Below are positions 35,764-55,024 of a stretch of DNA of 64,000 nucleotides, piece by piece. The position numbers and the translations under genes were made by a program. This stretch comes from Desulfosediminicola ganghwensis (lineage in GTDB: Bacteria; Desulfobacterota; Desulfobulbia; Desulfobulbales; Desulfocapsaceae). Within the stretch, counting starts at the first letter, position 1. Every line of letters begins with the position of its first letter. The notes below the pieces were generated by a model. That model had not been told where the DNA came from and did not search any database. It saw nothing but the letters and a program-made list of their open reading frames with translations. The stretch is from contig NZ_CP050699.1 of NCBI RefSeq assembly GCF_005116675.2, forward strand, positions 3,743,001 through 3,807,000, written 5' to 3'.

Positions 35764-36582
35764 ATGCAACATTTTCCAATGACACCCAAAGAGATGGTCA
35801 TCAGCCCATGGCGTAACCGCTATCTGCTGAAAAAGGCCATTCAACGGGAAATAAACGGGCGATACAGAGGCTCCATTTTAGGAATACTCTGGTCATTCTT
35901 TACGCCCTTGCTCATGCTCAGCGTCTATACTTTTGTGTTCAGCGTGGTATTCAAGGCAAGATGGAGCGGCGGATCTGGTTCAAAAACAGAATTCGCCCTG
36001 ATACTTTTTTCAGGACTTATGGTGTTCAACCTCTTTGCAGAGTGCGTGAACCGAGCGCCCACGATGATTTTGGGACATAGCGATTATGTAAAACGGGTGA
36101 TTTATCCGCTTGAGATCCTGCCGTTGGTAACCATGGGTTCAGCAATATTTCAGACTACCATCAGCTTAGGTGTATGGTTATTGGCCTACGTTGTCCTTTT
36201 TGGTATCCCCCAAGTGACGGTATTTTTACTACCCCTGGTACTAATGCCACTGGTCTTTCTCACATTAGGAATATGCTGGTGGCTGGCGGCCCTGGGAGTA
36301 TATTTACGCGATGTATCACAAATCATAGGTATCATCACAACAGCAATGCTGTTTTTATCCCCGATTTTCTATTCAGCATCACGGTTGCCGGAAAACTATC
36401 AAAAGATTCTGAAACTGAACCCGCTGACCCTGATAATTGAACACACACGTGGCATCCTGCTTTGGGGGAGATTACCAGACTCAATCACTCTGATCATCCA
36501 ATATATCCTGACCATTTCAATCTGCTACATGGGATTTGCCTGGTTCCAGAAAACTCGAAAAGGGTTCGCCGATGTCCTGTGA
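35764..36582 (+). CDS. wzm: O-polysaccharide ABC transporter, permease
   Basis: ABC-2-type membrane subunit of 272 residues that exports lipid-linked polysaccharide across the inner membrane. Six helices are visible from about residue 50, and RYLLKKAIQREINGRYRGSILG with FTPLLMLSVYTFVF is the family N-terminus. The start may be the ATG at 35764 or the one 15 bp later (MTPKEMV). It overlaps wzt by 11 bp. Its presence shows the main polymer uses the ABC-transporter route rather than Wzx/Wzy. Confidence 0.94.
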   Translation: MQHFPMTPKEMVISPWRNRYLLKKAIQREINGRYRGSILGILWSFFTPLLMLSVYTFVFSVVFKARWSGGSGSKTEFALILFSGLMVFNLFAECVNRAPTMILGHSDYVKRVIYPLEILPLVTMGSAIFQTTISLGVWLLAYVVLFGIPQVTVFLLPLVLMPLVFLTLGICWWLAALGVYLRDVSQIIGIITTAMLFLSPIFYSASRLPENYQKILKLNPLTLIIEHTRGILLWGRLPDSITLIIQYILTISICYMGFAWFQKTRKGFADVL

Positions 36583-37927
36583 AGTCCCAATTCTGATCAA
36601 AGATCTGTCAAAATGCTATCAGATCTATGACAGACCTCATCATAGGCTATTGCAGATGATTCACCGCGGGCATCGTCAGTACTACCACGAATTCTGGGCA
36701 TTAAAAAACTTATCGATGAACGTTGAGAGAGGAGAAACAGTTGGAATAATTGGTCGAAATGGTGCAGGTAAGTCAACGCTGTTGAAAATGATATGCGGTA
36801 CTCTAAACCCAACTAAAGGTACTATTAAGACAAATGGTAGAATAGCAGCAATTCTCGAACTTGGTACGGGCTTTAATCCTGAATTCACAGGCAGGGAAAA
36901 TGTCTACCTTAAAGCTTCGATCCTTGGGTTAAAAAACAAAGAGATTGATGATCGTTTCGGCTCCATCGCAGATTTCGCAGAGATAGGCGACTTTATCGAT
37001 CAACCTGTACGCACCTACTCTAGCGGAATGCTGGTCCGCCTGGCATTTGCAGTCTCAGTAAACGTTGACCCAGAAATTCTCATTGTCGATGAGGCTCTCT
37101 CTGTAGGAGATGAACGTTTCCAGAGAAAATGCTTTTCGAGAATTGAGTCGATACGAAACAGCGGTGCAACCATTCTCTTCGTATCACACTCCGGCTCCAC
37201 GGTAATCCAACTCTGCGACCGAGCCATTCTCCTGGAAGACGGTGCAAAGCTTGCTGAGGGCATGCCTAAAAAAATATACGGCTATTACCAAAAATTGCTG
37301 TATGCCCCTGATGACAAAAAAGACTTTGTTAAATTAAGCATAGTAGCCGATGAGCCATTACCAGCAGCTATAGAATCTGACCAGAAGGTGGCAGAAGTAA
37401 ATACACAAGCCCCAGATCGACAACAACAAGATGCTGAAAACTTCAACCCGGATCTGGTCCCTACCAGTACTATCGAATATGAGTCTTGCGGTGCTGTGAT
37501 TTACAACCCGCAAATACTCACTTTAAGTGGGAAGATCGTTAACAATCTTGTTCGTTCAAAACGTTATATTTACAACTACGCTGTCGATTTTACAGAAGAT
37601 GTTCAAAACGTACGTTTTGGCATGTTAATAAAAACCAAAACAGGTGTAGAACTCGGTGGCGCGACCTCTGCCTGTTCACTTCATGAAATGGTGGAGTTCA
37701 TTCCTGCTGGAACGAAATATTCGGTGCAGTTCAATTTCCGCTGCGCACTTAATGAAGGTACGTATTTTCTCAACGCAGGAGTTATAGGCGAAATTTCAGG
37801 TGTTGAAACTGTTTTACACCGTTTGCTTGACCTGGCAATGTTCAAAGTTCAGCCTGAACCGAAACGCCTGACAACTGCCATTATCGACTTTGATTGCAAA
37901 CCTGATTTTTCGATTCTTAAAAACTAA
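36572..37927 (+). CDS. wzt: O-polysaccharide ABC transporter, ATPase with carbohydrate-binding C-terminus
   Basis: A 451-residue ATPase partner of Wzm. The nucleotide-binding domain has Walker A GRNGAGKST at 61-69, signature YSSGMLVRLAF and Walker B ILIVDEALSVGD. Residues about 300-451 form the extra Wzt-C beta-sandwich that in other systems recognises the finished, capped non-reducing end of the O-chain. AGGG precedes the ATG at 36572, which gives a typical Wzt N-terminus. The long C-domain predicts that export depends on a terminal modification, and sulfation or methylation are candidates here. Confidence 0.93.
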   Translation: MSCEVPILIKDLSKCYQIYDRPHHRLLQMIHRGHRQYYHEFWALKNLSMNVERGETVGIIGRNGAGKSTLLKMICGTLNPTKGTIKTNGRIAAILELGTGFNPEFTGRENVYLKASILGLKNKEIDDRFGSIADFAEIGDFIDQPVRTYSSGMLVRLAFAVSVNVDPEILIVDEALSVGDERFQRKCFSRIESIRNSGATILFVSHSGSTVIQLCDRAILLEDGAKLAEGMPKKIYGYYQKLLYAPDDKKDFVKLSIVADEPLPAAIESDQKVAEVNTQAPDRQQQDAENFNPDLVPTSTIEYESCGAVIYNPQILTLSGKIVNNLVRSKRYIYNYAVDFTEDVQNVRFGMLIKTKTGVELGGATSACSLHEMVEFIPAGTKYSVQFNFRCALNEGTYFLNAGVIGEISGVETVLHRLLDLAMFKVQPEPKRLTTAIIDFDCKPDFSILKN

Positions 37928-37933
37928 CGCCAC

Positions 37934-40504
37934 ATGAATAAGATAAATCATCTAGACAACCAACAACTACAGGATGAATTAACATCATTACGTGCATTTA
38001 AGGAACAGGTGCGAGGTTCCAGGTCATGGAGGTTCACTTCACCATTGCGGCACCTAGCTAGGAAGCTGACTCGTTTAGGTTCCATACCTGATATCACCTC
38101 CCGACTGCAGGACATAACAACTCAATCTAACCTCCAGAGGTCCTTTGATCCGCTTTTTTATAAACGCGCTTATCCTGAATCATCAAATGATCCTCGCAAA
38201 CATTACCTAACGTACGGGCTGCCTTCAGGAAAACCGGGCACAGCCCCGGTGCTAATAACAGAAAAGCAGATAACTCTGCTCGATTCAACCAAGCAGACTG
38301 TCCTCCTGGTTGTGCATGACTCAGATCATTCAGGCACTCCGGTTCTTACCTATAATATTGCCAGGCATCTGCGAACTCAGTTCAACGTAATCCTACTTCC
38401 GCTTCATGGAGGTAAGCTGATACCTGCATTCTCCATGTCCGCAGATGTATGCATTGAGCCATTCCCCGATGGTTACAATGAAAATGTGGCCTCAGCTGTT
38501 CTCGATGATTTCCTGGCCAGAGGCTTAATCGATTTTGCTATTGTAAACAGTATCGTTTCAAGATCAGTTCTTCGCATACTCGCCGAGCATTACATCCCGT
38601 CTGTATGTCTGATCCACGAATTTCCAACATATATCCGGCCTAAAAATGCATCATTGCAGGTACAGTTATGGGCCACCAGAACAATTTACTCTGCGAGACT
38701 GGTTTACGAAAACACTGCTGAGCAGTGTCCTGAATTGAAAGAGTCAAACGCACTTATCATCCCTCAGGGAAAGTGTTCTCCGCCTGAAAATGACACACAT
38801 TCAGGATCGCTATCTGATCCTCTAGCTACTATTGAGGATGCACTTGACCTTCTAAAGTCTTACCAATTACCTGATGGTGCCATACTCATCATTGGCGTAG
38901 GTACCGTTGAGTTTCGCAAAGGGGTCGACCTATTTATAGATTGCGCCAGTCGACTACTTCATGCTTGTACTGATCTTCCCCTGCTTTTTGCATGGATTGG
39001 ACCCGGCTATGATCCTGAATCAGACCTGAATTATTCAACCTTTCTAAAAGATCAGATACATAGACTCGGCTTGACCGATAAATTCGTTTTTACCGGACAT
39101 ATCCAACAAATAGGTAAAATTTACGAAATGGCAGATGTGCTCTTTTTAAGCTCTCGTCTCGACCCATTACCTAACACCGCTATAGAAGCTATGAGTTCAG
39201 GTGTGCCTGTTGTATGTTTTCAGAACGCCTCTGGAATAGCCGATGTTCTCACCGACTTTAACATGGATCGCGAATGTGTCGTTCCTTATCTTAGAACCGA
39301 TCTGGCGGCTCAAAAAATTGCCGCGCTATGTAACAAAACCGCACTTAGGACTTATGTAGGGAACACTCTTAAAAAGCAGGCCTCCAGCACTTTTGATATG
39401 GGTAACTACTCAGGGCAACTTGCAGATATTGCGCTTAACTGCACCCAAACAGTCAATAAAGAAAAGGAAGAGTGTCTTCGTCTCATCAACAGTGACCTTA
39501 TTGATCTCTCTTTTTTCCCCCCCCCTACTTTGGGTCCGCTTACTCAGCAACAGGCCGCCCGCTTATTCGTGCGCTCATGGCGAAGCGGTGTGCAGCGCAG
39601 AAAACCTTTTCCAGGCTTCCATCCCGGGATCTATGCCGAACTAAATGATGTCGATTTATCCAGCTCAACCCCCCTCATTCACTTTATTGATGCAGGCAGA
39701 CCAAAAGGCCGTTGGCGATCCCGGCTGATTAGTCCCTCAAAAAATAGCTGTTTTGAAAATCCTGAACTGAATAGCCAGCTAAAGATAGGCCTCCATATCC
39801 ATTGCTATTACCCTGAATTACTTTCGGGGTTGATTGAGCAAATTAGCAGGCAACCACTCAAGCAATTCGACCTGCTTGTAAGTACAACGACTGACGATGG
39901 CTTCCGCCTAGCTAAAAAGGTGACTGACTCCTGGCAATCAGGCAAAGCAATCTGCCGTAAAGTCCCTAATAAAGGTCGTGATATCGGTCCATTTTTAACT
40001 GAGTTCGGCGACAGAATCATCAACGATTACGATATAATTGGCCATTTCCATACAAAAAAAAGCCTTGCTGTTGCTGATAATGGGGTAGTTCAGGTCTGGG
40101 TTGATTATCTGCTAGAGCATCTGATTGGCGCAAATCATCATATGATACCGACAATCCTTGATGCTTTTGCGAGAAGCCCAAAGCTTGGACTCGTCTTCCC
40201 CGAAGATCCATACATTGTCGGGTGGTCAGCCAATCATCACACAGCCAGACAATTAGCCGAAGAACTGGGAATTGAAGATATAGGTTATAAATTCTTTAAC
40301 TTCCCGGTCGGCAACATGTTTTGGGCTCGCCCGGAGGCTTTGTCATCACTATTTCTGCGCAACTTTCAATGGGATGATTACCCAGAGGAGCCATTGGCTA
40401 ACGATGGCTCCCTCCTTCACGCCCTTGAGAGGATGATCCCATTAATAGTACAAAAGCACGGATTTCGACACGCCTTGACCTATATACCAGGAATGACGAG
40501 GTAA
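37934..40504 (+). CDS. GT4 glycosyltransferase fused to rhamnan-synthesis F-like domain
   Basis: An 856-residue protein starting six bases after wzt. Order: short coiled coil (8-22), linker SWRFTSPLRHLARKL (32-46), a FDPLFYKRAYP...HYLTYG motif (about 72-100), GT4 glycosyltransferase (about 115-500, with FRKGVDLFIDCASRLL and LSSRLDPLPNTAIEAMSSG), a second copy of the motif (FHPGIYAELN...LIHFIDAG, about 557-590), then an RgpF domain (about 615-856) with NKGRDIGPFL and HFHTKKS. RgpF-type domains polymerise or extend rhamnan in streptococci. This is probably a bifunctional chain-extending glycosyltransferase acting at the cytoplasmic face. Confidence 0.85.
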   Translation: MNKINHLDNQQLQDELTSLRAFKEQVRGSRSWRFTSPLRHLARKLTRLGSIPDITSRLQDITTQSNLQRSFDPLFYKRAYPESSNDPRKHYLTYGLPSGKPGTAPVLITEKQITLLDSTKQTVLLVVHDSDHSGTPVLTYNIARHLRTQFNVILLPLHGGKLIPAFSMSADVCIEPFPDGYNENVASAVLDDFLARGLIDFAIVNSIVSRSVLRILAEHYIPSVCLIHEFPTYIRPKNASLQVQLWATRTIYSARLVYENTAEQCPELKESNALIIPQGKCSPPENDTHSGSLSDPLATIEDALDLLKSYQLPDGAILIIGVGTVEFRKGVDLFIDCASRLLHACTDLPLLFAWIGPGYDPESDLNYSTFLKDQIHRLGLTDKFVFTGHIQQIGKIYEMADVLFLSSRLDPLPNTAIEAMSSGVPVVCFQNASGIADVLTDFNMDRECVVPYLRTDLAAQKIAALCNKTALRTYVGNTLKKQASSTFDMGNYSGQLADIALNCTQTVNKEKEECLRLINSDLIDLSFFPPPTLGPLTQQQAARLFVRSWRSGVQRRKPFPGFHPGIYAELNDVDLSSSTPLIHFIDAGRPKGRWRSRLISPSKNSCFENPELNSQLKIGLHIHCYYPELLSGLIEQISRQPLKQFDLLVSTTTDDGFRLAKKVTDSWQSGKAICRKVPNKGRDIGPFLTEFGDRIINDYDIIGHFHTKKSLAVADNGVVQVWVDYLLEHLIGANHHMIPTILDAFARSPKLGLVFPEDPYIVGWSANHHTARQLAEELGIEDIGYKFFNFPVGNMFWARPEALSSLFLRNFQWDDYPEEPLANDGSLLHALERMIPLIVQKHGFRHALTYIPGMTR

Positions 40505-40549: not shown

Positions 40550-41416
40550 ATGCAGCTATTTTCAAAAATACGCGACCAGTTCATCAAACCCAAAGAGCAC
40601 TTGGACATCACCATTGTTGGCAGCTGCCTATCAAATTTTGTTGTTTCGAGCTATCTCGAAAAGCATCTTCCACCGAACCTGCCAATTCGCCGCCTAACAA
40701 GCGCCTTACAATTGCGTACTGATATTATTCTTGAGTTACTGGAACACAAAGGCATGGACATCGACCTCGTTGAACATTATCTCAAAGCCGGAAAGTGGGG
40801 AAAAAGTGCTACCCAACACAAATATGCCCAATGGTTCTCTTCATTCGTCCTTGAAAAATGTCTAGAGTCAAGAAACATCCATGACGATTGTCCTGATCTG
40901 CTGATCATGGATTCTCTTTGTGATATTCGCCATAGCCTTTATGCCCATCGCAGTAAAGGCTGGAAAGCATTTTTTGGTAATATTCAATTCAGTGACGCCT
41001 CAGTAGAAAAAAACTTTACAAATGAATTCTCCCACATCGGCCTGCTTCCTGCTGATGAGCAACTCAAAAAACTAATCAGGCTAGTAATGCACTTCAAAAA
41101 AAGAAACTCAAGCCTAAGAGTTGTTTATATGCATTTCCCTTTAAATCCTAATTATGTAGATCAGAAGTGGATAGCCCGCAGCTCTCATTTCGAGATGTTA
41201 CTCAATGTCTTTTTGGAAAGAGATAAGCATAAGGATATTCTCTCAATTTCTGTTCCTGAAAAGTTGAATATCCCAGTGACTGACCCTGAACATCCAAATT
41301 ACAGCCCCCAGATATGGAATCATTTTTACCCGGAAACATATAATTTTTTCGCGGAGCATATCTCACATTTTATACTTAATAGAAAACCTATGTTCAAGCC
41401 ATCAGGCACAAATTAA
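40550..41416 (+). CDS. SGNH-hydrolase-like protein of glycan locus
   Basis: A 288-residue protein without signal peptide. Residues about 20-28 (DITIVGSCLSNFV) resemble the GSC/GDS nucleophile block seen in SGNH-like families of capsule loci (WcbI/DUF6270-like), and WNHFYPETYNFFAEHI near 263-278 could be the D/E..H block. This suggests an acyl- or other group transferase or esterase acting on the polymer, but family membership is by eye only. AGGAA lies before the ATG. It sits between two multi-domain glycosyltransferases in the wzm-wzt operon. Confidence 0.5.
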   Translation: MQLFSKIRDQFIKPKEHLDITIVGSCLSNFVVSSYLEKHLPPNLPIRRLTSALQLRTDIILELLEHKGMDIDLVEHYLKAGKWGKSATQHKYAQWFSSFVLEKCLESRNIHDDCPDLLIMDSLCDIRHSLYAHRSKGWKAFFGNIQFSDASVEKNFTNEFSHIGLLPADEQLKKLIRLVMHFKKRNSSLRVVYMHFPLNPNYVDQKWIARSSHFEMLLNVFLERDKHKDILSISVPEKLNIPVTDPEHPNYSPQIWNHFYPETYNFFAEHISHFILNRKPMFKPSGTN

Positions 41417-41530: not shown

Positions 41531-44500
41531 ATGAAAAAATGTCTCTTAATCCTTGGTATGCATCGTAGTGGAACTTCTGCTTTTACCGGTACACTTAATA
41601 ACCTTGGGGTTAATCTCGGAAAAAACCTGATGCCTTCGAAACCTGACAATCCCAAAGGTTTTTTTGAGAATCGCATAGTCCACGATATAAACAACGACAT
41701 TTTTACCCTCTTGAATTCTCATTGGAGCGATATTTTCCCCCTTTCCGAAAAATGGTGGGAATCACCTATCATCAGACCTTTTCATCGTAGAATTTCATCA
41801 TTTATTAATAACGAATTCAATGACAACGCCATATTTGCACTGAAAGATCCCCGGCTATGCCGTTTGGCACCAATCTGGATTCAGGTTCTAAAAGAAAATA
41901 ATATCGAACCGTTTTTTGTATTAATCGCACGCAACCCGGCAGAAGTTGCTGCTTCTTTGAAAGAACGGAACGATATGGCGCCTGAGGTTGCAATGCATTT
42001 ATGGTTCAGACATGTACTTGAAGCCGAATTTCAGACGAGAGATCATCATAGAGGATTTGTATCTTTCGAAAAACTTATAGAACAGCCTAACACTTCTGTT
42101 CTCGGTACCATTAAACAACTCAGACTAGAATCAGATATCGATACCACTCCACTTGTTCAGGCCGAAACCAATTTTATAGATAAAAGCATGCGTCACCATG
42201 TCATCACTAATTCTGATGATTCCACCTTCAAACTTGCTGCAACTTGCTATGAGATCTTACAATCTCTATCTGAAAACATCTTGGCACCAATAACCATCCA
42301 TGAAAAGTTCGACGAAATTCGAAACGAATACCAAAATCTATTCGATATTTTTCTCAGTGAAGAGATGTGCGATTTAGCAAAAATGCGATCCATAATAACT
42401 ACTTGTGGTGAAGAAATTTCACATCTCAAACAGCGACACAAGGAAGAACTGAAGCTCGTTCAGGATAAAGCAGACCAGGAACTTGAAGTTCTTCATGAAC
42501 AATATGAAGGCAAGATGAAAGGTGCTCTATTCACGTTGAAGTGTCAAAATGAATTCGCTGCTACAGAATCTCAGAAACTAATCAATAAACTGAAAACTGA
42601 AAACGAACTGCTCAAAGCACATCTCAGTCACTCACAAACAACTGTTGAGCAGATGCAGGAAACCCTGGGTTGGCAATTAGCAGATAAAACAAGGGCAGTA
42701 GCCCATAAACTTTTACCCCCTGATTCTCTGCGAAGACGCGCTGGTCGGGTATCAGTGCGCAGCGCAAAAGTTCTGATACAAGAGGGGCCAAAATCTTTGC
42801 TGCAAAAAAGTGGCAATAAAATAATCGGTTCAAAGTTATCATTTCAAGATACTCTACTTGAATCGTTAAATATAAACCCTGATTCCGAAAATTCATTACA
42901 TTTTAAGGAGAATGATAACGTACAAGCCAGCATTATTATTCCAGTCTACAATAACTGGTCATACACCTGGAAATGTCTTCTCTCAATTTACCACCGTACC
43001 GAAGGGAATTACGAGATTATCATTGTTGATAACGGCTCAACAGATGAGACACCGAAAAGATTGGCTAAATGTACCGGGATTACGGTAATAACCAACTCAA
43101 CCAACGAGGTATTTGTTACCGGATGCAATCAGGGCGCTGAGGCGGCTAATGGTGAATACCTAATTTTCTTAAATAATGATACAGAAGTGACTATTGGTTG
43201 GCTACAGGCACTGCTGGCCCCCTTTAGTGACCCGAAAACTGGAATCGTTGGCGGACGCTTACTGTATCCGGACGGTAGCTTACAAGAAGCTGGAAATATT
43301 GTATGGAGTGACGGTAATGGCTGGAACTATGGCCATGGAGACGATCCTTACCTACCTCAATACTCCTATCGTAAAGAAGTCGATTACTGTTCAGGTGCCT
43401 GCCTTGCTATTCCACAAAATCTTTGGCAAAAACTTGGCGGATTCGATATTCGTTATCGTCCTGCATACTATGAAGACACCGATCTTTGTTTTAGTGCCAG
43501 GAAATATGGCTATAAAGTAATTTACCAGCCAGAGGCGCAGGTAATTCATCACGGAGGGGCCTCCGCAGGTACTAATACAAGTCAAGGTTACAAAAAGTAC
43601 CAGGAGATCAACAAAGCGAAGTTCCAGCACAAGTGGAAGCACACCTTAACAAGAGATCATTATTCCGATCCCAGTATGCTGTACCTGGCAAGAGAGCGTG
43701 GAGCAGAGAAGAGAATTTTAATTATTGACCATTATGCACCGACCTTCGATAAAGACTCAGGTTCTCTCAGAATGTTCAGCCTGATTCAAATCTTTCAAGA
43801 ACTGGGCTTTAAGGTGCTTTTCTGGCCTGACAATCGGGAGTATGACAAGAGATATACCCTTGAACTTCAGAGGTTGGGAGTAGAAGTGTTTTTTGGTGAT
43901 ACCACCTTCGAGCAATTCATTATCGAATATGGCAAATACCTGGACGTCGTCCTCCTTTCAAGACCATATATCGCTAAGAATTACATCCATCTAGTTAAAA
44001 CCAACTCGAATGCCATCACCATCTTCGATACTGTTGACCTTCATTATCTTAGGGAAGAGAGGAAGGCAAAGCTTATAGTAGAACAATGGAAAAACCTGGA
44101 ATTCTATTTGGCAAATGAAACTGATGCAACTCTTGTTGTTAGCCCAACTGAAAAAGAGATACTTAGCCAGGAAGAATTTATCGATAAAGTGCACATTGTC
44201 AGCAACGTTCATCAACTTCAAGATTGCAACAATAACTTCATAGACCGCACCGGATTGATGTTCATAGGTGGTTTTAATCATCCACCAAACGAAGATGGAA
44301 TACTGTGGTTCGTGAATGCTGTTTTACCATTAATCAAGAGAAAACTTCCAGGCATTCACTTAACAATCGTTGGCAGCAATCCATCTCAGGAATTACAAAA
44401 TCTCCAAAATCAGACCATTGATGTAACTGGTTATGTAGAGGATGTGAGTACATATTTTGAAGATGCTCGGGTCTTCGTGTGCCCTTTGAGGTATGGAGCA

Positions 44501-45613
44501 GGAGTCAAGGGAAAATTGGGGCAAAGTATTAGCTATGGGTTACCTGTAGTAACAACATCTGTTGGCGCTGAAGGCATGGGACTGTCACATGGAGTCAATG
44601 CCTTGATAGCAGACCAAGCAGAAGATTTCGCACAAAACGTAATCGAACTTTATACAGACGCGAACACATGGCAAAAGATATCAAATAATAGCAGGAAGGT
44701 TATAGAGGAAAATTTCTCTATACCTGTGATAAAAAATTCACTAATTAATATTTTCGACCAAAATAAAAGTGACAACAAACCAAGGTATATTTTATTACAT
44801 TGTCATCTTTTTAAAAATGCAGGAACAACATTTGATTGGAGTCTTCACAGATTTTTTGGCGCGAAGTTTTACGAACATCATGATGATGAACAGATGAAAC
44901 GTGGACGCAAGTATCTCGGACCATTCCTCAAAGAGAATAAGGGTATATCTGCGCTTACCAGTCATCATGTTACATTTCCGTTACCAACCGAAGAAAGTCT
45001 TCATTTGATACCTGCGATTATATTTCGCCATCCCATAGACAGGATTGGCTCCGTCTACTCATTTGAGAGACAGCAATTTTCAAACACTCCAGGTGCTAAG
45101 AAAGCAAAAGAGTTGTCTTTCAAAGACTATGTAGGATGGAGGTTGTTAAAAAATACAGGCGCAACGATACGAAATTACCAAACAAGGTATTTTATTGAAG
45201 AAGACTCAGCAGATTTAACACAGTATCATTTCGAGGTCGCCCTCGATGAAATAGAAAAGATACCTTTGATTGGTGTTGTTGAACGCTATGATGAAACCAT
45301 GGTTGTGTTTGAACATTATCTTGATCATTTTTTCCCACATATAGATTTATCCTACATAAGGCAGAATGTTTCAAACAGCAGAGATAACGTCATAACAAAG
45401 CGTATAGCAACGATAAAAACAAGCCTTGGGCCGCAGTTATTTGAAAAAGTTATTGAAAGTAATGGTTATGATTTGAAAATACATGATATCGCCAACCGGA
45501 AACTCGATTGTCAAATTAGTCAAATTACCAATTTTGAAAAGAAATTATCAGACTTCAAAGATCGATGCCGGATGCTGCAACTTTCTGCAAACTCATCTGT
45601 TGATAAAAATTAG
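41531..45613 (+). CDS. four-domain fusion: sulfotransferase - GT2 - GT4 - sulfotransferase
   Basis: A 1360-residue protein. Residues 1-260 are a sulfotransferase-like domain with the PAPS 5'-phosphate loop GMHRSGTSA (9-17) and 3'-phosphate segment ARNPAEVAASLKERN. A coiled coil follows (about 290-385). GT2 is at about 463-710 (IIIPVYNNWSYTW, VDNGSTDET, LNNDTEVT, YYEDTDLCFSARK). GT4 is at about 727-1070 (LIIDHYAPTFDKDSGS, GAGVKGKLGQSISYGLPVV). The C-terminal domain (about 1087-1330) again looks like a sulfotransferase (HLFKNAGTTFDWSL, RHPIDRIGSVYSFE). It probably builds and sulfates the O-chain or its cap. Last gene of the operon. Confidence 0.83.
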   Translation: MKKCLLILGMHRSGTSAFTGTLNNLGVNLGKNLMPSKPDNPKGFFENRIVHDINNDIFTLLNSHWSDIFPLSEKWWESPIIRPFHRRISSFINNEFNDNAIFALKDPRLCRLAPIWIQVLKENNIEPFFVLIARNPAEVAASLKERNDMAPEVAMHLWFRHVLEAEFQTRDHHRGFVSFEKLIEQPNTSVLGTIKQLRLESDIDTTPLVQAETNFIDKSMRHHVITNSDDSTFKLAATCYEILQSLSENILAPITIHEKFDEIRNEYQNLFDIFLSEEMCDLAKMRSIITTCGEEISHLKQRHKEELKLVQDKADQELEVLHEQYEGKMKGALFTLKCQNEFAATESQKLINKLKTENELLKAHLSHSQTTVEQMQETLGWQLADKTRAVAHKLLPPDSLRRRAGRVSVRSAKVLIQEGPKSLLQKSGNKIIGSKLSFQDTLLESLNINPDSENSLHFKENDNVQASIIIPVYNNWSYTWKCLLSIYHRTEGNYEIIIVDNGSTDETPKRLAKCTGITVITNSTNEVFVTGCNQGAEAANGEYLIFLNNDTEVTIGWLQALLAPFSDPKTGIVGGRLLYPDGSLQEAGNIVWSDGNGWNYGHGDDPYLPQYSYRKEVDYCSGACLAIPQNLWQKLGGFDIRYRPAYYEDTDLCFSARKYGYKVIYQPEAQVIHHGGASAGTNTSQGYKKYQEINKAKFQHKWKHTLTRDHYSDPSMLYLARERGAEKRILIIDHYAPTFDKDSGSLRMFSLIQIFQELGFKVLFWPDNREYDKRYTLELQRLGVEVFFGDTTFEQFIIEYGKYLDVVLLSRPYIAKNYIHLVKTNSNAITIFDTVDLHYLREERKAKLIVEQWKNLEFYLANETDATLVVSPTEKEILSQEEFIDKVHIVSNVHQLQDCNNNFIDRTGLMFIGGFNHPPNEDGILWFVNAVLPLIKRKLPGIHLTIVGSNPSQELQNLQNQTIDVTGYVEDVSTYFEDARVFVCPLRYGAGVKGKLGQSISYGLPVVTTSVGAEGMGLSHGVNALIADQAEDFAQNVIELYTDANTWQKISNNSRKVIEENFSIPVIKNSLINIFDQNKSDNKPRYILLHCHLFKNAGTTFDWSLHRFFGAKFYEHHDDEQMKRGRKYLGPFLKENKGISALTSHHVTFPLPTEESLHLIPAIIFRHPIDRIGSVYSFERQQFSNTPGAKKAKELSFKDYVGWRLLKNTGATIRNYQTRYFIEEDSADLTQYHFEVALDEIEKIPLIGVVERYDETMVVFEHYLDHFFPHIDLSYIRQNVSNSRDNVITKRIATIKTSLGPQLFEKVIESNGYDLKIHDIANRKLDCQISQITNFEKKLSDFKDRCRMLQLSANSSVDKN

Positions 45614-45675: not shown

Positions 45676-46580
45676 ATATGGAAAAGTGAGTGAGTTGAAG
45701 GTATGGTGTCAGCTCCTACACTTAACCAACGCCAGGATTGCATGAAACAACATAAACACCACCGACAACCAACTCTTGAACAAAGATACCAGATTTCAAG
45801 ACTTCGTAAAGCAGGTATGAGTCTCAGAGCTATAGCCGATGAGGTTGGAATCAGTTGCAGCACAGTAATCAGAGAACTTAGCAAGAACTCTACTGCTGAT
45901 GGCTATAACGCTGATGCTGCGCAAATATCAACCAATAAAAGACGATCAGAAAGCCATAAACACAACAAACGATCTCCTGAAACTGATCGTATTATTTCTG
46001 AATCTTTATCGCTTGGCTTGTCTCCTGAAGCAATCAGTCAGAGGACGAAAGTTGAATTGTCGCCTGAATCGGTCCTATGCCATGGCACTATCTACACAAG
46101 TATTTATAACAATAAAGCGCGTGGAGGGAGGTTATTCAGTCGACTGCCAAGGCATGTTAAAAAACGTTGGAAAGGCGGTAAGAGAAGACACATGGCGGGA
46201 GCTTCGTTGATACCTCAACAACAAGATATTTCAAAAAGACATACAATTTTGGACAAACGCAGTCGTATAGGTGACTGGGAAGACGACACTGGCCTCGGCA
46301 AGAAGGGTTTACCTGGTGACACTCCTTGATCGAATCAACAGGTTCACATTTGTTCTACGAGTTTCTAAGAAAACTAAAAATTAGGCGGCCTCAGCAATGG
46401 CAGCGTTGTTGAGCAGAGTGCAGGAGGTCCGCACAATAACCCTTGACCACTGTTCGGAATGTGCATTCATTCAACCGCTTCCGTAGCGGCGGGGGCGGGA
46501 ACTATTTTTCCAAAAAAAAGCGAGTTGGTAGCGTGGACCTAATAAAAACTCAAATAGCAGGATTAGGCGCTTCTGGCCCA

Positions 46581-46588: not shown

Positions 46589-46609
46589 GTAAGCGGTAAT
46601 TAAACCCCA
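46589..46609 (+). repeat. IS66 left inverted repeat
   Basis: GTAAGCGGTAATTAAACCCC plus A; 17 of 21 positions match the right repeat. Confidence 0.85.
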
Positions 46610-48228
46610 CTCACATTTCCAGCTATTCGTAGATCGTCAGCTTTTAAATTCATCGGCAAAAGTTTCAACAGCTCTGAACGAGATTCTGCAAACGGTAATT
46701 TTTCAAATAGATATCGAAGGTAGTTATACGGTTCCAAATTATTGGCCTTGGCTGTTTCAACCAGGCTATAGATCACGGCGCTCGCCTTAGCACCTTCCTG
46801 TGTTCCTGCAAACAGCCAGTTTTTTCTGCCAACGACAAATGGGCGTATTGCGTTCTCAGCGGCATTATTGTCCGGCGTCATTTCAGGAATATCGAGGTAG
46901 ACCAATAAGCGTTTCCACTGGTTGAGGGTATAATTCACCGCAGATCCAAGCAAACTCTTCGGTGTCACTTGGCTAGACTTTTTGCTCAGCCAAAGGAAGA
47001 AATCTTCCAGAATCGGCCGAGCCTTTTTTCGACGCAAGGCAAGCAGGTCTTCATCTGCAAGACCTTGTTTAGCTGCCTCTTTTTCAATTGCATAAATTTG
47101 TCGAATATAGTTCAGCGCTACATCGGTGCTGCCCGCCTTTTTGGTTTTGCCACGACCTTTTTGTGCATCAACAAATTTACGGCGAACATGAGCCCAACAG
47201 CCAGCGTGGGCAATATTCGGTTGCGTATCAAGAAAGTCGTACCCAGCGTAACCATCTGATTGCACGGCTCCACGATATCCCGCAAGCAGCTCCCTTGCAA
47301 TTTTGGCTGAACGACTTGGAGCATAATGATAGATCAGGCCGGGATGATGTGGATCACCACCGCGACATATCCACATATACGATTTAGTTGTTGGTGACCG
47401 CCCCGGTTCAGCCAGAACCTGAACCGAGGTTTCATCGATATTGATTAACGGACCGGAATGAATCTCTCGCCACAGCAGTTCAAGAAGTGGTGTGCAGGCA
47501 CCGGCAGCTTTCATTGCCCAATTAGCCATGGTTGCCCTGGGTATTTCAGCTCCCAGCCGGGAAAATTGTCTTTCCTGCCGGTAAAATGGCAGTGCATCAC
47601 AGAATTTTGCAGTAAGTATATGGGCGAGTAAGCCCGCGGTAGCAATTCCCTTGCTGATAATCTGCTTTGGCGGTGGTGCAATTTTCACCACTGGCCCTTC
47701 AGACTCCAATCCTTCACAGGCTTTACAAGCATATTTAGGGCGAATATGACGCACAACCCGTATAATAGCTGGGACGATATCCAACTTTTCGGAAATATCC
47801 TCACCTATACGATCCAGCTCCGCCCCACAATTGCAGACTTTATCATCTTCGGGAATGTCATGTACGATTTCGACCCTGGGCAGGTTAGCCGGTAACGGCT
47901 TGCGGCCTCGTTTCGCTCGAGTATGTTCAGGGACTTCAACAACCTCGGCAACTGGCTCAACCTCAGGTTCAGGCATGTCAAAGAGAGGCAGTTGCATCAC
48001 GCCTGCTTCGGCTCCTCCTTTTTCACTTTTTTTGCCAAACAGTTTGGCATAGAGTAGACGAACCTGCTCTCGTAAAAGCTCGGTTTCCCGCTCGTAACGA
48101 CGTTGGGTTTCAACGAGAAGTCGTTTGAGTTCTGCCGGGTCATCAGGAAGGTTTGCTGTATCGAAATTCATGTGTGCAATATACCACATAAACATTGCCA
48201 TAACAGCTAGTTCAAGCAATATTTCCAT
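46600..48228 (-). CDS. tnpC: IS66-family transposase TnpC
   Basis: DDE-type transposase of 542 residues. The N-terminal leucine-zipper-like stretch and FGKKSEK motif are followed by a zinc-finger-like domain (VCNCGAELD ... CKACEG) and the IS66 catalytic region: INIDETSVQVL, QSDGYAGYDF, AGCWAHVRRKF and DNNAAENAIRPFVVGRKNWLF with the final Glu. The C-terminus YNYLRYLFEKLP is the family tail. The ATG at 48228 is possible, but the ATG at 48171 (MNFDTANLPDDP) gives the more usual N-terminus. The frame is intact. Confidence 0.96.
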   Translation of the reverse strand: MEILLELAVMAMFMWYIAHMNFDTANLPDDPAELKRLLVETQRRYERETELLREQVRLLYAKLFGKKSEKGGAEAGVMQLPLFDMPEPEVEPVAEVVEVPEHTRAKRGRKPLPANLPRVEIVHDIPEDDKVCNCGAELDRIGEDISEKLDIVPAIIRVVRHIRPKYACKACEGLESEGPVVKIAPPPKQIISKGIATAGLLAHILTAKFCDALPFYRQERQFSRLGAEIPRATMANWAMKAAGACTPLLELLWREIHSGPLINIDETSVQVLAEPGRSPTTKSYMWICRGGDPHHPGLIYHYAPSRSAKIARELLAGYRGAVQSDGYAGYDFLDTQPNIAHAGCWAHVRRKFVDAQKGRGKTKKAGSTDVALNYIRQIYAIEKEAAKQGLADEDLLALRRKKARPILEDFFLWLSKKSSQVTPKSLLGSAVNYTLNQWKRLLVYLDIPEMTPDNNAAENAIRPFVVGRKNWLFAGTQEGAKASAVIYSLVETAKANNLEPYNYLRYLFEKLPFAESRSELLKLLPMNLKADDLRIAGNVSGV

Positions 48229-52098: not shown

Positions 52099-52851
52099 CT
52101 ACCGCCACATCGAAGTATCTATTCCATACTTGCATTCCAATCCTTTATTACTCACCATGAAAATCTCATCTAATCTAGATTTAAGATTTTGATTTAACAT
52201 TACATTATACCCTTTGCTCCTAGCGGGATTTACTATCTCATTTATATGGGGTGAAGAATATGAACCATCCACCCCAATCCTTTTGTACAAATTGGATATT
52301 TCTTCCTTGTCACCAACCATTTTTTCAAAAACTATAAATATCATATTATCCTTACCAAATACTTGTTCCCAAATGGGTAAATATTTAACATAATGTCCTC
52401 TTTCTGTGTACGCATAGGGATTTACTGATATATTTAATTTTCTCCAATGCTTCGAACGTGCCTCCTCACATTTTATTGCATTTTCAAAACTTAAAGATTC
52501 AAGGCCATTATTTACGGTAAATTGGTAATTAGATATTGCCCTCTCAATAGGATCTCTTAGTGACACGATTATCAAGCAATTAGGGATAACAGCTTTAATG
52601 GCCCTAGCGGACGCAACCTTTTCAATATACGACGTACTTTTTTCACCAAGCAACTGATATTTATTAGAACTCATAAAATATCGCTTATAATAAGCGCTAT
52701 ACCCATTAACAATATTTGCTTGATCTATAAAATATTTCGGTTCAGGCTTAACCGGTTTGGCCATAAACACTTCAGGGTGAGAATCAAGGATCTTATATAA
52801 ATACGTTGTGCCAGATCGTTGCGCCCCAATTATAACAAAATGCCTATGCAT
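52099..52851 (-). CDS. PAPS-dependent sulfotransferase
   Basis: A 250-residue sulfotransferase-family protein. The N-terminal PAPS 5'-phosphate loop IIGAQRSGTTYLYKIL (7-22) and 3'-phosphate motif SLRDPIERAISNYQF (near 95-110) are complete, and TERGHYVKYLPIWEQVFG is a typical core segment. This is the third sulfotransferase-like domain within 11 kb. It overlaps the upstream glycosyltransferase gene by eight bases. It may sulfate the amino-sugar branch. Acceptor unknown. PAPS supply would need an APS kinase, not present in the window. Confidence 0.88.
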   Translation of the reverse strand: MHRHFVIIGAQRSGTTYLYKILDSHPEVFMAKPVKPEPKYFIDQANIVNGYSAYYKRYFMSSNKYQLLGEKSTSYIEKVASARAIKAVIPNCLIIVSLRDPIERAISNYQFTVNNGLESLSFENAIKCEEARSKHWRKLNISVNPYAYTERGHYVKYLPIWEQVFGKDNMIFIVFEKMVGDKEEISNLYKRIGVDGSYSSPHINEIVNPARSKGYNVMLNQNLKSRLDEIFMVSNKGLECKYGIDTSMWR

Positions 52852-53830: not shown

Positions 53831-55024
53831 TTAATTTACTCCATTGATTATACTTGCAGGGACCTTCGGTAATCTACGTATCAACTTTCTAATATTTTTA
53901 TGTAGCGACAATATGATTTTTTCCTGTTGCCACTCTTTAATTCCCACCCAAAGAGGCAACCGGAGAACCTTACTTGAGTAATAATCTGTTAGGACAAGTT
54001 TTCCTCCACATCTTCCTAACTTTCTTCCAGCTGGACTAGAGTGCAGGGGTACATAATGAAATACCACCCCTATCCCTTCTTTCCTTAATTCAGATATCAA
54101 TTTCTGCCTGTTAATAATTGGAGCAAGAAGAATGTAATACATATGTGCATTATGCTCGCATTCTCGAGGAACAATAGGTCTTCGTAGCAACCCATCTTTT
54201 TCCATACTTTTTAGCCCTTCATGATACAGATTCCAGCTAGCCAATCTATTCTTAGTTATAGATTCAGCTTCTTCCAACTGCGCCCATAAAAACGCGGCAA
54301 TAAGTTCACCAGGCAAAAAAGACGAGCCACAATCCTGCCAAGTGTACTTATCAACATCACCTCTGAAAAACTGACTTCTATTTGTTCCTTTCTCTCGGAT
54401 TATCTCAGCACGGGCAATCATGCTTTGATCATTTACCAACAGTGCCCCCCCCTCACCCGAGATGACATTTTTCGTTTCGTGAAAACTGAACGCCCCGAGA
54501 TCCCCAAAGGTTCCCAGTGCTCTGCCTTTATACTTGGCCATCACGCCTTGAGCCGCATCTTCGATAACTTTCAAATTATACCGGTCTGCTATCTCTAGAA
54601 TGGTGTCCATCTCACAAGCGACGCCCGCATAATGTACCGGCACTATCGCCTTTGTCCTTGGTGTGATAGCATCTTCGATTAGCCGTTCATCGATATTTAG
54701 CGTATCTTCACGTATATCGACAAACACAGGTACTGCCCGGCGTAGTACGAAGGCATTCGCTGTTGATACAAAAGTATATGAAGGCATTATCACTTCGTCT
54801 CCCTCATCTAATTCCAATAACAACGCAGCCATCTCTAGAGCTGCTGTACATGAGTGAGTTAGTAATGCCTTTCTAGTTCCTGTTAATCTTTCCAACCAGG
54901 AATGACATTTTTCTGTGAAGGGCCCATCTCCCGCAAGCTTTCCATTAAAATGACATTCGGCTATATAAAATAGCTCCTTCCCTGTCATGTAAGGCCAATT
55001 AAAAGGGATTGCGTTATCAGACAT
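53831..55024 (-). CDS. dTDP-4-amino-4,6-dideoxygalactose transaminase (RffA/WecE-like)
   Basis: A 397-residue PLP-dependent DegT/DnrJ/EryC1 aminotransferase that closely follows E. coli RffA by eye: IPFNWPYMTGKELFYI, KLAGDGPFTEKC, SCTAALEMAALLL, DEVIMPSYTFVSTANAF, VPVHYAGVACEMDTI, EDAAQGVMAKYKGRALGT and FSFHETKNVISGEGG, with the internal-aldimine Lys in ETKN. It would convert dTDP-4-keto-6-deoxyglucose plus glutamate to dTDP-Fuc4N. First gene of the cassette. RmlA/RmlB, which make its substrate, are not in the window. Confidence 0.9.
   Translation of the reverse strand: MSDNAIPFNWPYMTGKELFYIAECHFNGKLAGDGPFTEKCHSWLERLTGTRKALLTHSCTAALEMAALLLELDEGDEVIMPSYTFVSTANAFVLRRAVPVFVDIREDTLNIDERLIEDAITPRTKAIVPVHYAGVACEMDTILEIADRYNLKVIEDAAQGVMAKYKGRALGTFGDLGAFSFHETKNVISGEGGALLVNDQSMIARAEIIREKGTNRSQFFRGDVDKYTWQDCGSSFLPGELIAAFLWAQLEEAESITKNRLASWNLYHEGLKSMEKDGLLRRPIVPRECEHNAHMYYILLAPIINRQKLISELRKEGIGVVFHYVPLHSSPAGRKLGRCGGKLVLTDYYSSKVLRLPLWVGIKEWQQEKIILSLHKNIRKLIRRLPKVPASIINGVN

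Follow-up and report, generated by a model that had tools for sequence, protein, structure and literature searches.

A 64,000-nucleotide stretch of the genome of Desulfosediminicola ganghwensis (hereafter the window; contig NZ_CP050699.1, positions 3,743,001 to 3,807,000) contains at 41531-45613 (+) an open reading frame (ORF) of 1360 amino acids (aa) with no internal stops. The encoded protein carries a sulfotransferase-type domain at each end, here called ST_N and ST_C, and between them two glycosyltransferase (GT) modules, GT2 and GT4. Genes for Wzm and for a Wzt with the C-terminal domain Wzt_C lie upstream on the same strand, and the locus is thus of the ATP-binding cassette (ABC) type that a first-pass annotation of this DNA had named. 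On balance we favor the prediction that the fusion protein is the polymerase-terminator of an ABC-exported surface polysaccharide, in which ST_N would cap the chain for export and ST_C would sulfate the repeat unit.

The first-pass annotation had described two loops for 3'-phosphoadenosine 5'-phosphosulfate (PAPS) in one frame, and both were found (GMHRSGTS, residues 9-16; HLFKNAGTT, residues 1092-1100). It had also described two glycosyltransferases of different folds; Pfam places GT2 at residues 467-589 and GT4 at 909-1043, both far above the cut-off. The two ends belong to different subfamilies, as had been claimed: ST_N fits Sulfotransfer_3 and Sulfotransfer_1 and ST_C fits Sulfotransfer_2, which rules out duplication of a single sulfotransferase. 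A fusion produced by a sequencing error is unlikely, because here a short linker connects GT4 with ST_C within one frame, whereas the two occupy separate frames 75 bp apart in the related locus L076. The features of the locus are listed in Table 1; the 288-aa protein had no Pfam match.

Table 1. Features of the fusion locus, in coordinates of the window
Feature	Position	Strand	Basis
Wzm, ABC-2 membrane subunit	35764..36582	+	PF01061, E 6.7e-24
Wzt, ATPase and C-terminal carbohydrate-binding domain (Wzt_C)	36536..37927	+	PF00005, PF14524
Wzt carbohydrate-binding domain, residues 305-451	37448..37888	+	Tree of these domains, alignments
Wzt Arg429, aligned with A. aeolicus Trp362	37820-37822	+	Alignment
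Second GT protein, GT4 and RgpF	37934..40504	+	Pfam; same modules carry ST_N in L084
288-aa protein, family unassigned, N-terminal IVGSCLSN stretch	40550..41416	+	54% identical in L084
ST_N, predicted PAPS sulfotransferase domain, Sulfotransfer_3/1 type, residues 1-268	41531..42334	+	AF2, Foldseek, motifs
Predicted ruler, helical or coiled coil, residues ~285-381	42383..42673	+	Heptad score for 346-381; rest inferred
Basic post-coil segment, residues 380-415, perhaps membrane-associated	42668..42775	+	Weak motif counterpart; inferred
GT2 module, residues 456-715	42896..43675	+	PF00535, E 7.7e-30
GT4 module, residues 716-1072	43676..44746	+	PF13692, E 8.5e-28
ST_C, putative sulfotransferase, Sulfotransfer_2 type, residues 1081-1350	44771..45580	+	PF03567 in homologs, invariant columns

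The two terminal domains

When the first 275 residues were scanned alone, Sulfotransfer_1 matched with E 0.0014, slightly under the Pfam cut-off. Among nine N-domains, Sulfotransfer_3 and Sulfotransfer_1 each matched eight at E<=0.1. GMHRSGTS, KDPR (105-108), R134 and S142 are invariant across the nine ST_N homologs. In an alignment of 27 ST_N sequences, 26 of which come from viral contigs, GMHRSG, K105, R108, R134 and S142 are invariant, and T15 and S16 are conserved in at least 90%. We take these to be the motifs for the 5'- and 3'-phosphates of PAPS. An AlphaFold2 (AF2) model of ST_N computed with the 27-sequence alignment reached a predicted local distance difference test (pLDDT) score of 91.2 and a predicted template modeling (pTM) score of 0.90. 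All 10 Foldseek matches of this model at E<=1e-3 were sulfotransferases (TPST1, E 1.8e-5). In VIA-align the fit to TPST1 gave Z 15.8; the tyrosylprotein sulfotransferases TPST1 and TPST2, which ST_N resembles in predicted fold, are animal enzymes that act on proteins. A kinase assignment was rejected, since adenylate kinases gave Z ~10 as against values up to 15.8 for sulfotransferases. The predicted fold and the conserved motifs support ST_N as a PAPS sulfotransferase, with the transfer itself as a prediction.

The last 291 residues alone matched Sulfotransfer_2 with E 3e-4, again slightly under the cut-off, and PF03567 (Sulfotransfer_2) matched all eight C-domains at E<=0.1. An HxHxxKNAG loop and R1166...S1174 are kept in eight ST_C homologs; KNAG and R...S are invariant in 11. 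An ST_C profile found weak matches in the PDB, namely HS6ST3 (E 0.026) and HS2ST (E 0.53), heparan sulfate 6-O- and 2-O-sulfotransferases of animals. No relatives of ST_C were found in viral contigs. From the family profile and the PAPS motifs we infer a sulfotransferase fold for ST_C.

P-loop domains that are degenerate or do not sulfate, kept as a scaffold at one end or at both, are very improbable. Such a role would fit the sub-threshold Pfam scores of both ends and, as a point against our proposal, the single-sequence fold model of ST_C, which reached only pLDDT 35.7, was unusable and was set aside. What speaks against it is that the PAPS motifs are invariant in nine ST_N and eight ST_C homologs and that the ST_N model fits PAPS enzymes best. 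Loss of the fold or of the PAPS residues in a terminal domain had been named beforehand as a refutation: ST_N has both, the fold by prediction, and ST_C has the residues, with a putative fold.

Module combinations in related loci

The first-pass annotation had proposed a search for the same architecture elsewhere. ST_C matches occurred in 10 of the 257 genomes of the order, the window's own included (a class-level search covered the same number of genomes, 257), and none of the nine others has the long frame; their ORFs measure 258-364 aa. Of 395 genomes sampled from the phylum, 20 had ST_C matches, and the longest other frames (646 and 584 aa) both belong to weak matches. A plasmid search with DNA gave no match. 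With protein no record reached 80% query coverage, and the matches were to GT2-GT4 genes of Alphaproteobacteria that have an ST_C gene in their vicinity. One scan of genome contigs returned a single, irrelevant GT2 locus.

ST_C has its own gene in eight loci (L075, L076, L077, L078, L082, L084, L091 and L341), next to or at most ~2 kb from a protein with GT2 and GT4; the module order is reversed to GT4-GT2 in L078, and contig ends truncate the large ORFs in L077 and L091. The ST_C genes on plasmids of Tropicibacter, Paracoccus and Sulfitobacter likewise lie near a GT2 and GT4 protein. With the window, ST_C was thus found in, or within ~2 kb of, such a protein in 12 of the 12 loci looked at, a count that leaves out weaker matches (G106:C3, G036:C21, G019:C182 and most of those in the phylum sample). 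As a point against this linkage, the GT2-GT4 relative of G106 is on another contig than its weak ST_C match. On the Tropicibacter oceani plasmid (L145:7976-9343) a 455-aa protein of the 'sulfotransferase family 2' type has an ST_C-like C-terminal half, and its N-terminal half, by eye, resembles a second, different sulfotransferase domain.

ST_N keeps its N-terminal place, and its partner varies: GT2-GT4 (L075, L076, L081, L082), GT4-RgpF (L084, L209), RgpF-WbsX (L204) or WbsX-GT4-GT2 (L213). It also occurs in ST_N-coil ORFs of 382-402 aa that have no polymerase (L202, L203, L207, L211; the end of L203 is masked). A methyltransferase recognized by Pfam takes the N-terminal place ahead of GT2-GT4 in L079 and L080, and the same arrangement was read from the sequence of a Pseudodesulfovibrio plasmid. 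The clearest case is L084, where ST_N is attached to GT4-RgpF and ST_C has its own gene; its identity to the window is 72% for Wzm, 77% for the ATPase part of Wzt, 37-44% for the GT4-RgpF regions and 54% for the 288-aa protein. Because of this distribution of partners, ST_C is read as belonging to the GT2-GT4 pair and ST_N as a terminal plug-in. By the same comparison, the modules form a shuffled set, and the window architecture represents one of its permutations. A further variant is the ST_N-GT2-GT4 protein at L081:9480-13814, in which a methyltransferase takes the C-terminal position that ST_C occupies in the window protein.

The position of ST_N relative to a coiled coil bears on its role. 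Known polymerase-terminator systems have their terminating enzyme at the distal end of a coiled-coil ruler with the GT modules beyond it, the modules are found on one or several proteins, and the cap is read by the carbohydrate-binding domain (CBM) of Wzt (PMC11231755). Coils were scored here with a home-made heptad score, using the 99.5th percentile of globular windows as threshold. A coil run starts at residues 267-346 in 18 of 21 ST_N proteins. Two points weigh against a ruler: the run is absent in the other three (L081, L212, L213), and the coil announced for the window protein, although present, is short, with 36 residues (346-381) at this threshold. Behind the coil of several relatives follows the pattern SW[RK][LIV]TxP[LFV]R, of which GWQLADKTR in the fusion is a weak counterpart; in an amphipathic-helix scan of the whole protein this post-coil segment was outside the top 15.

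The carbohydrate-binding domain of Wzt

Wzt proteins were surveyed in 121 loci, 12 of which had been chosen since ST_N lay near Wzt_C, and 107 of the proteins were full-length. Eighteen of the 107 share a locus with ST_N, in all 18 cases on the same strand, although two of these (L283, L284) depend on weaker ST_N matches of 91-97 bits. In 10 of the 18 loci ST_N starts -3 to +94 bp after wzt. Many relatives thus have wzt directly ahead of the putative terminator gene, which we take to be the gene order of Escherichia coli O9a as well. A count free of that choice of loci, taken among the matches listed (at most about two a genome), finds Wzt_C within ~5 kb of 15 of the 24 ST_N places that score 100 bits or more; it was made by cross-reading two match lists by hand.

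When the 107 CBMs were placed in a tree, one clade of 18 (support 99 in the Shimodaira-Hasegawa-like approximate likelihood ratio test, SH-aLRT) contained 14 of the 18 Wzts linked to ST_N. On this tree the ST_N label requires five changes, compared with a mean of 16.9 after shuffling (0 of 500 shuffles were as low). In two further members (L260, L277) wzt is followed by a large GT protein with an N-terminal Sulfotransfer_2 domain (E 1e-21), so that 16 of the 18 clade members are in loci with sulfotransferases, of two families. Outside the clade this holds for 10 of 89 by a generous hand count rather than a computed list (Fisher p 1.5e-10, ignoring relatedness). The ORF after wzt was scanned in 16 clade members and matched Sulfotransfer_3 in 11, Sulfotransfer_1 in four (overlapping) and Sulfotransfer_2 in two; L084 and L263 were left out, the ST_N gene of L202 was entered in place of a longer ORF picked by rule, and in the window and L210 this ORF is not ST_N. 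A downstream ORF was lacking for 11 Wzts outside the clade; for the other 78, the list of the 25 commonest families includes Methyltransf_23 (24 of 78) and Sulfotransfer_3 (3 of 78), and other sulfotransferase families with up to three members could be hidden beyond those listed. The sister group consists of three CBMs (L258, L267, L270). L258 has a Sulfotransfer_1 ORF directly after wzt (E 2e-6), and the next ORFs of L267 and L270 contain a loop-like HSLFR(S/A)GST. A third sulfotransferase type at these two loci is unproven: Pfam gave no match for L267 and E 0.011 for L270, and the PDB matches of the L270 ORF included no sulfotransferase.

These data also have to be compared with the explanation that both sulfotransferases decorate repeat units, that neither is a terminator, and that ST_N and the CBM are linked by co-inheritance or by recognition of a backbone sugar. 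Several observations weigh against a sulfate cap, and those on Wzts without CBM, on regions without Wzt and on the ATPase domain favor this explanation. Short Wzts without CBM accompany ST_N in L075, L078, L082, L085, L332 and L341. Wzt is absent from 15 of 20 further phylum regions picked by ST_N alone (two of the contigs are only 3-4 kb). Two genes separate wzt from the fusion in the window. No sulfotransferase is visible for two clade members, L264 on a 3.9-kb contig and L263, a wzm-wzt pair whose genome (G015) has ST_N on another contig. The tree of the ATPase domain clusters with sulfotransferases nearly as well as that of the CBM (6-7 vs 4-5 changes), and a nearest-neighbor test hardly separates CBM from ATPase domain (79 vs 75 of 96), so co-inheritance stays among the explanations. 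Domain swaps were few and picked by eye: L076, L206 and L211 have the ATPase domain outside the main sulfotransferase group and the CBM inside the clade, as expected for a cap-reading CBM, and L247, L249, L252, L254 and L271, with methyltransferase motifs, show the reverse. We nevertheless consider decoration alone rather unlikely, since ST_N precedes the coil as a terminator does and also exists as a separate ST-coil protein, it is accompanied by different polymerases, and next to two CBMs of the clade this position is taken by a sulfotransferase of a second family.

The proposal of a sulfated cap also finds a candidate residue in the CBM. A profile of 21 CBMs (clade and sister group) matched the O9a Wzt in the PDB (2r5o) with E 1.1e-11 and the Aquifex aeolicus Wzt with E 1e-10 to 2e-10; the entry 2r5o is identified as O9a Wzt in a figure legend (PMC6286764). 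The A. aeolicus Wzt reads a 3-O-methyl cap, on whose methyl group Trp362 stacks, and the W362L exchange essentially abolished lipopolysaccharide (LPS) binding (PMC9445017). The residue of the window Wzt that aligns with Trp362 is Arg429, and arginine is present in this column in 18 of 18 clade and three of three sister CBMs. The 86 CBMs outside these groups have tryptophan in 54 cases and arginine in 18, which makes the enrichment of arginine (21/21 vs 18/86) significant with Fisher p 6e-12, relatedness being ignored. The 20 phylum regions mentioned above yielded five Wzts; three are full-length, and all three have arginine. O9a Wzt likewise has arginine in this column according to the profile alignment, and O9a chains terminate in methyl-phosphate (PMC3482155). 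Our reading of the two solved cases is that tryptophan may serve methyl caps and arginine anionic ones.

It is quite unlikely, in our view, that ST_N is a terminator while the CBM reads a feature made along with the cap, such as a terminal sugar, with a structural role for the arginine. Two findings count against a sulfate-reading residue. Of the 18 outside carriers of arginine, 13 have a downstream protein with a methyltransferase motif, and arginine is therefore not specific for sulfate. In addition, four ST-linked Wzts outside the clade (L212, L213, L283, L284) lack it. The first of these would be expected if some of the 13 make methyl-phosphate. The importance of the column itself is indicated by the loss of LPS binding in W362L, and an arginine occupies it in the methyl-phosphate reader of O9a.

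In L247, L249, L252, L254, L257 and L271, CBMs with an O9a-like DRRYD pattern are followed by proteins with methyltransferase motifs, which are candidates for methyl-phosphate terminators. The Wzt ORFs of L212 (7419-9560) and L213 (4841-6964) are unusually long, with 713 and 707 aa and a deviant C-terminal part, and adjoin several different sulfotransferase genes.

Predicted capping system and its setting

Starting from what was computed here (the domains, the predicted ST_N fold, the conservation of PAPS motifs, the row of genes, the association with one CBM clade and the arginine), the fusion protein may work as follows. GT2 and GT4 would add two sugars of the repeat, and ST_C would sulfate a residue made by this pair. 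The coiled coil would hold ST_N away from the polymerase, so that only chains of sufficient length reach it. As the format suggests, ST_N would then sulfate the non-reducing end, and growth would stop. The CBM of the neighboring Wzt would recognize this sulfated terminus, Arg429 lying in its cap pocket, as co-occurrence and this one pocket position suggest, and this recognition would admit the capped chain to export. The two sulfotransferases thus probably have different jobs, one at the cap and one at the repeat unit. The first-pass annotation had suggested that one enzyme both assembles and sulfates or caps a chain. The fusion does carry both kinds of domain, but a single enzyme doing everything is improbable because the second GT protein, GT4-RgpF, lies in the same gene row. 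As for its suggestion that the Wzt C-terminal domain reads the signal, the comparative evidence favors the cap as that signal, and binding remains a prediction. We see about even chances that sulfate is a further cap chemistry, provided by at least two sulfotransferase families beside one lineage of CBMs with an arginine pocket, and that ST_C modifies the repeat.

The closest known layout is ORF6 of Klebsiella pneumoniae O7, a methyltransferase-kinase with a coiled coil and two GT2 modules (PMC11231755). It shares with the window protein the N-terminal cap enzyme, the coil, two polymerizing GT modules behind it and the Wzm/Wzt system. It differs in that the window protein has an N-terminal sulfotransferase, GT2 with GT4 and an extra C-terminal sulfotransferase, the chemistry of which is predicted. 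Klebsiella O12 WbbB also unites polymerase and terminator in one polypeptide (PMC11231755), but it caps with beta-3-deoxy-D-manno-oct-2-ulosonic acid (Kdo) by means of a glycosyltransferase, and in the window another GT protein stands in the row. E. coli O9a offers a terminator with a coiled coil, WbdD, and the closest solved CBM; the cap added by WbdD is methyl-phosphate, and WbdD and the polymerase WbdA are two proteins (PMC3482155), a format that the ST_N-coil ORFs of the relatives resemble. In the wbsalmo locus of Aeromonas salmonicida, wzt, the sulfotransferase-domain gene ORF19 and a large WbbB stand in a row, as separate genes, and the sulfotransferase gene between wzt and wbbB is unassigned (PMC4483657). 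The known caps that Wzt recognizes comprise methyl, (methyl-)phosphate and Kdo groups (PMC9445017, PMC11231755), and neither paper contains a word that starts with 'sulf'. A description of a sulfotransferase terminator or of a double-sulfotransferase fusion was not found in the literature searched, most subscription journals being outside its scope. The coiled-coil polymerase-terminator with a CBM-bearing Wzt is of a known kind, and the putative sulfotransferase terminator and the double fusion are apparently new, as far as these sources go.

The fusion locus appears to be accessory and was probably acquired, because three genomes of the same genus match the GT2 part only among the matches listed (best E 1.2e-21, 1.5e-15 and 1.4e-14). 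Its GC content is ~40%, compared with 45-50% across the first 32 kb of the window. An ORF with transposase-type helix-turn-helix domains (45703-46329, +) lies directly 3' of the fusion, followed by an IS66 transposase (46603-48228, -), which suggests a mobile or reshuffled locus. The genome encodes an adenosine 5'-phosphosulfate kinase, and a supply of PAPS is therefore plausible. A further stand-alone sulfotransferase at 52099-52851 (-) (Sulfotransfer_3 E 1.8e-17, Sulfotransfer_1 E 1.3e-13) lies near a DegT aminotransferase (53831-55024) in the stretch of lowest GC in the window (~33%).

The fusion serves as Rosetta-stone evidence that a stand-alone 'sulfotransferase family 2' gene works with GT2-GT4 polymerases. 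If the sulfate cap is true, it would widen the list of caps, and sulfated chain ends would become predictable from sequence in many uncultured bacteria. Tryptophan or arginine in the Wzt pocket would then give a one-residue hint as to whether a cap is neutral or anionic.

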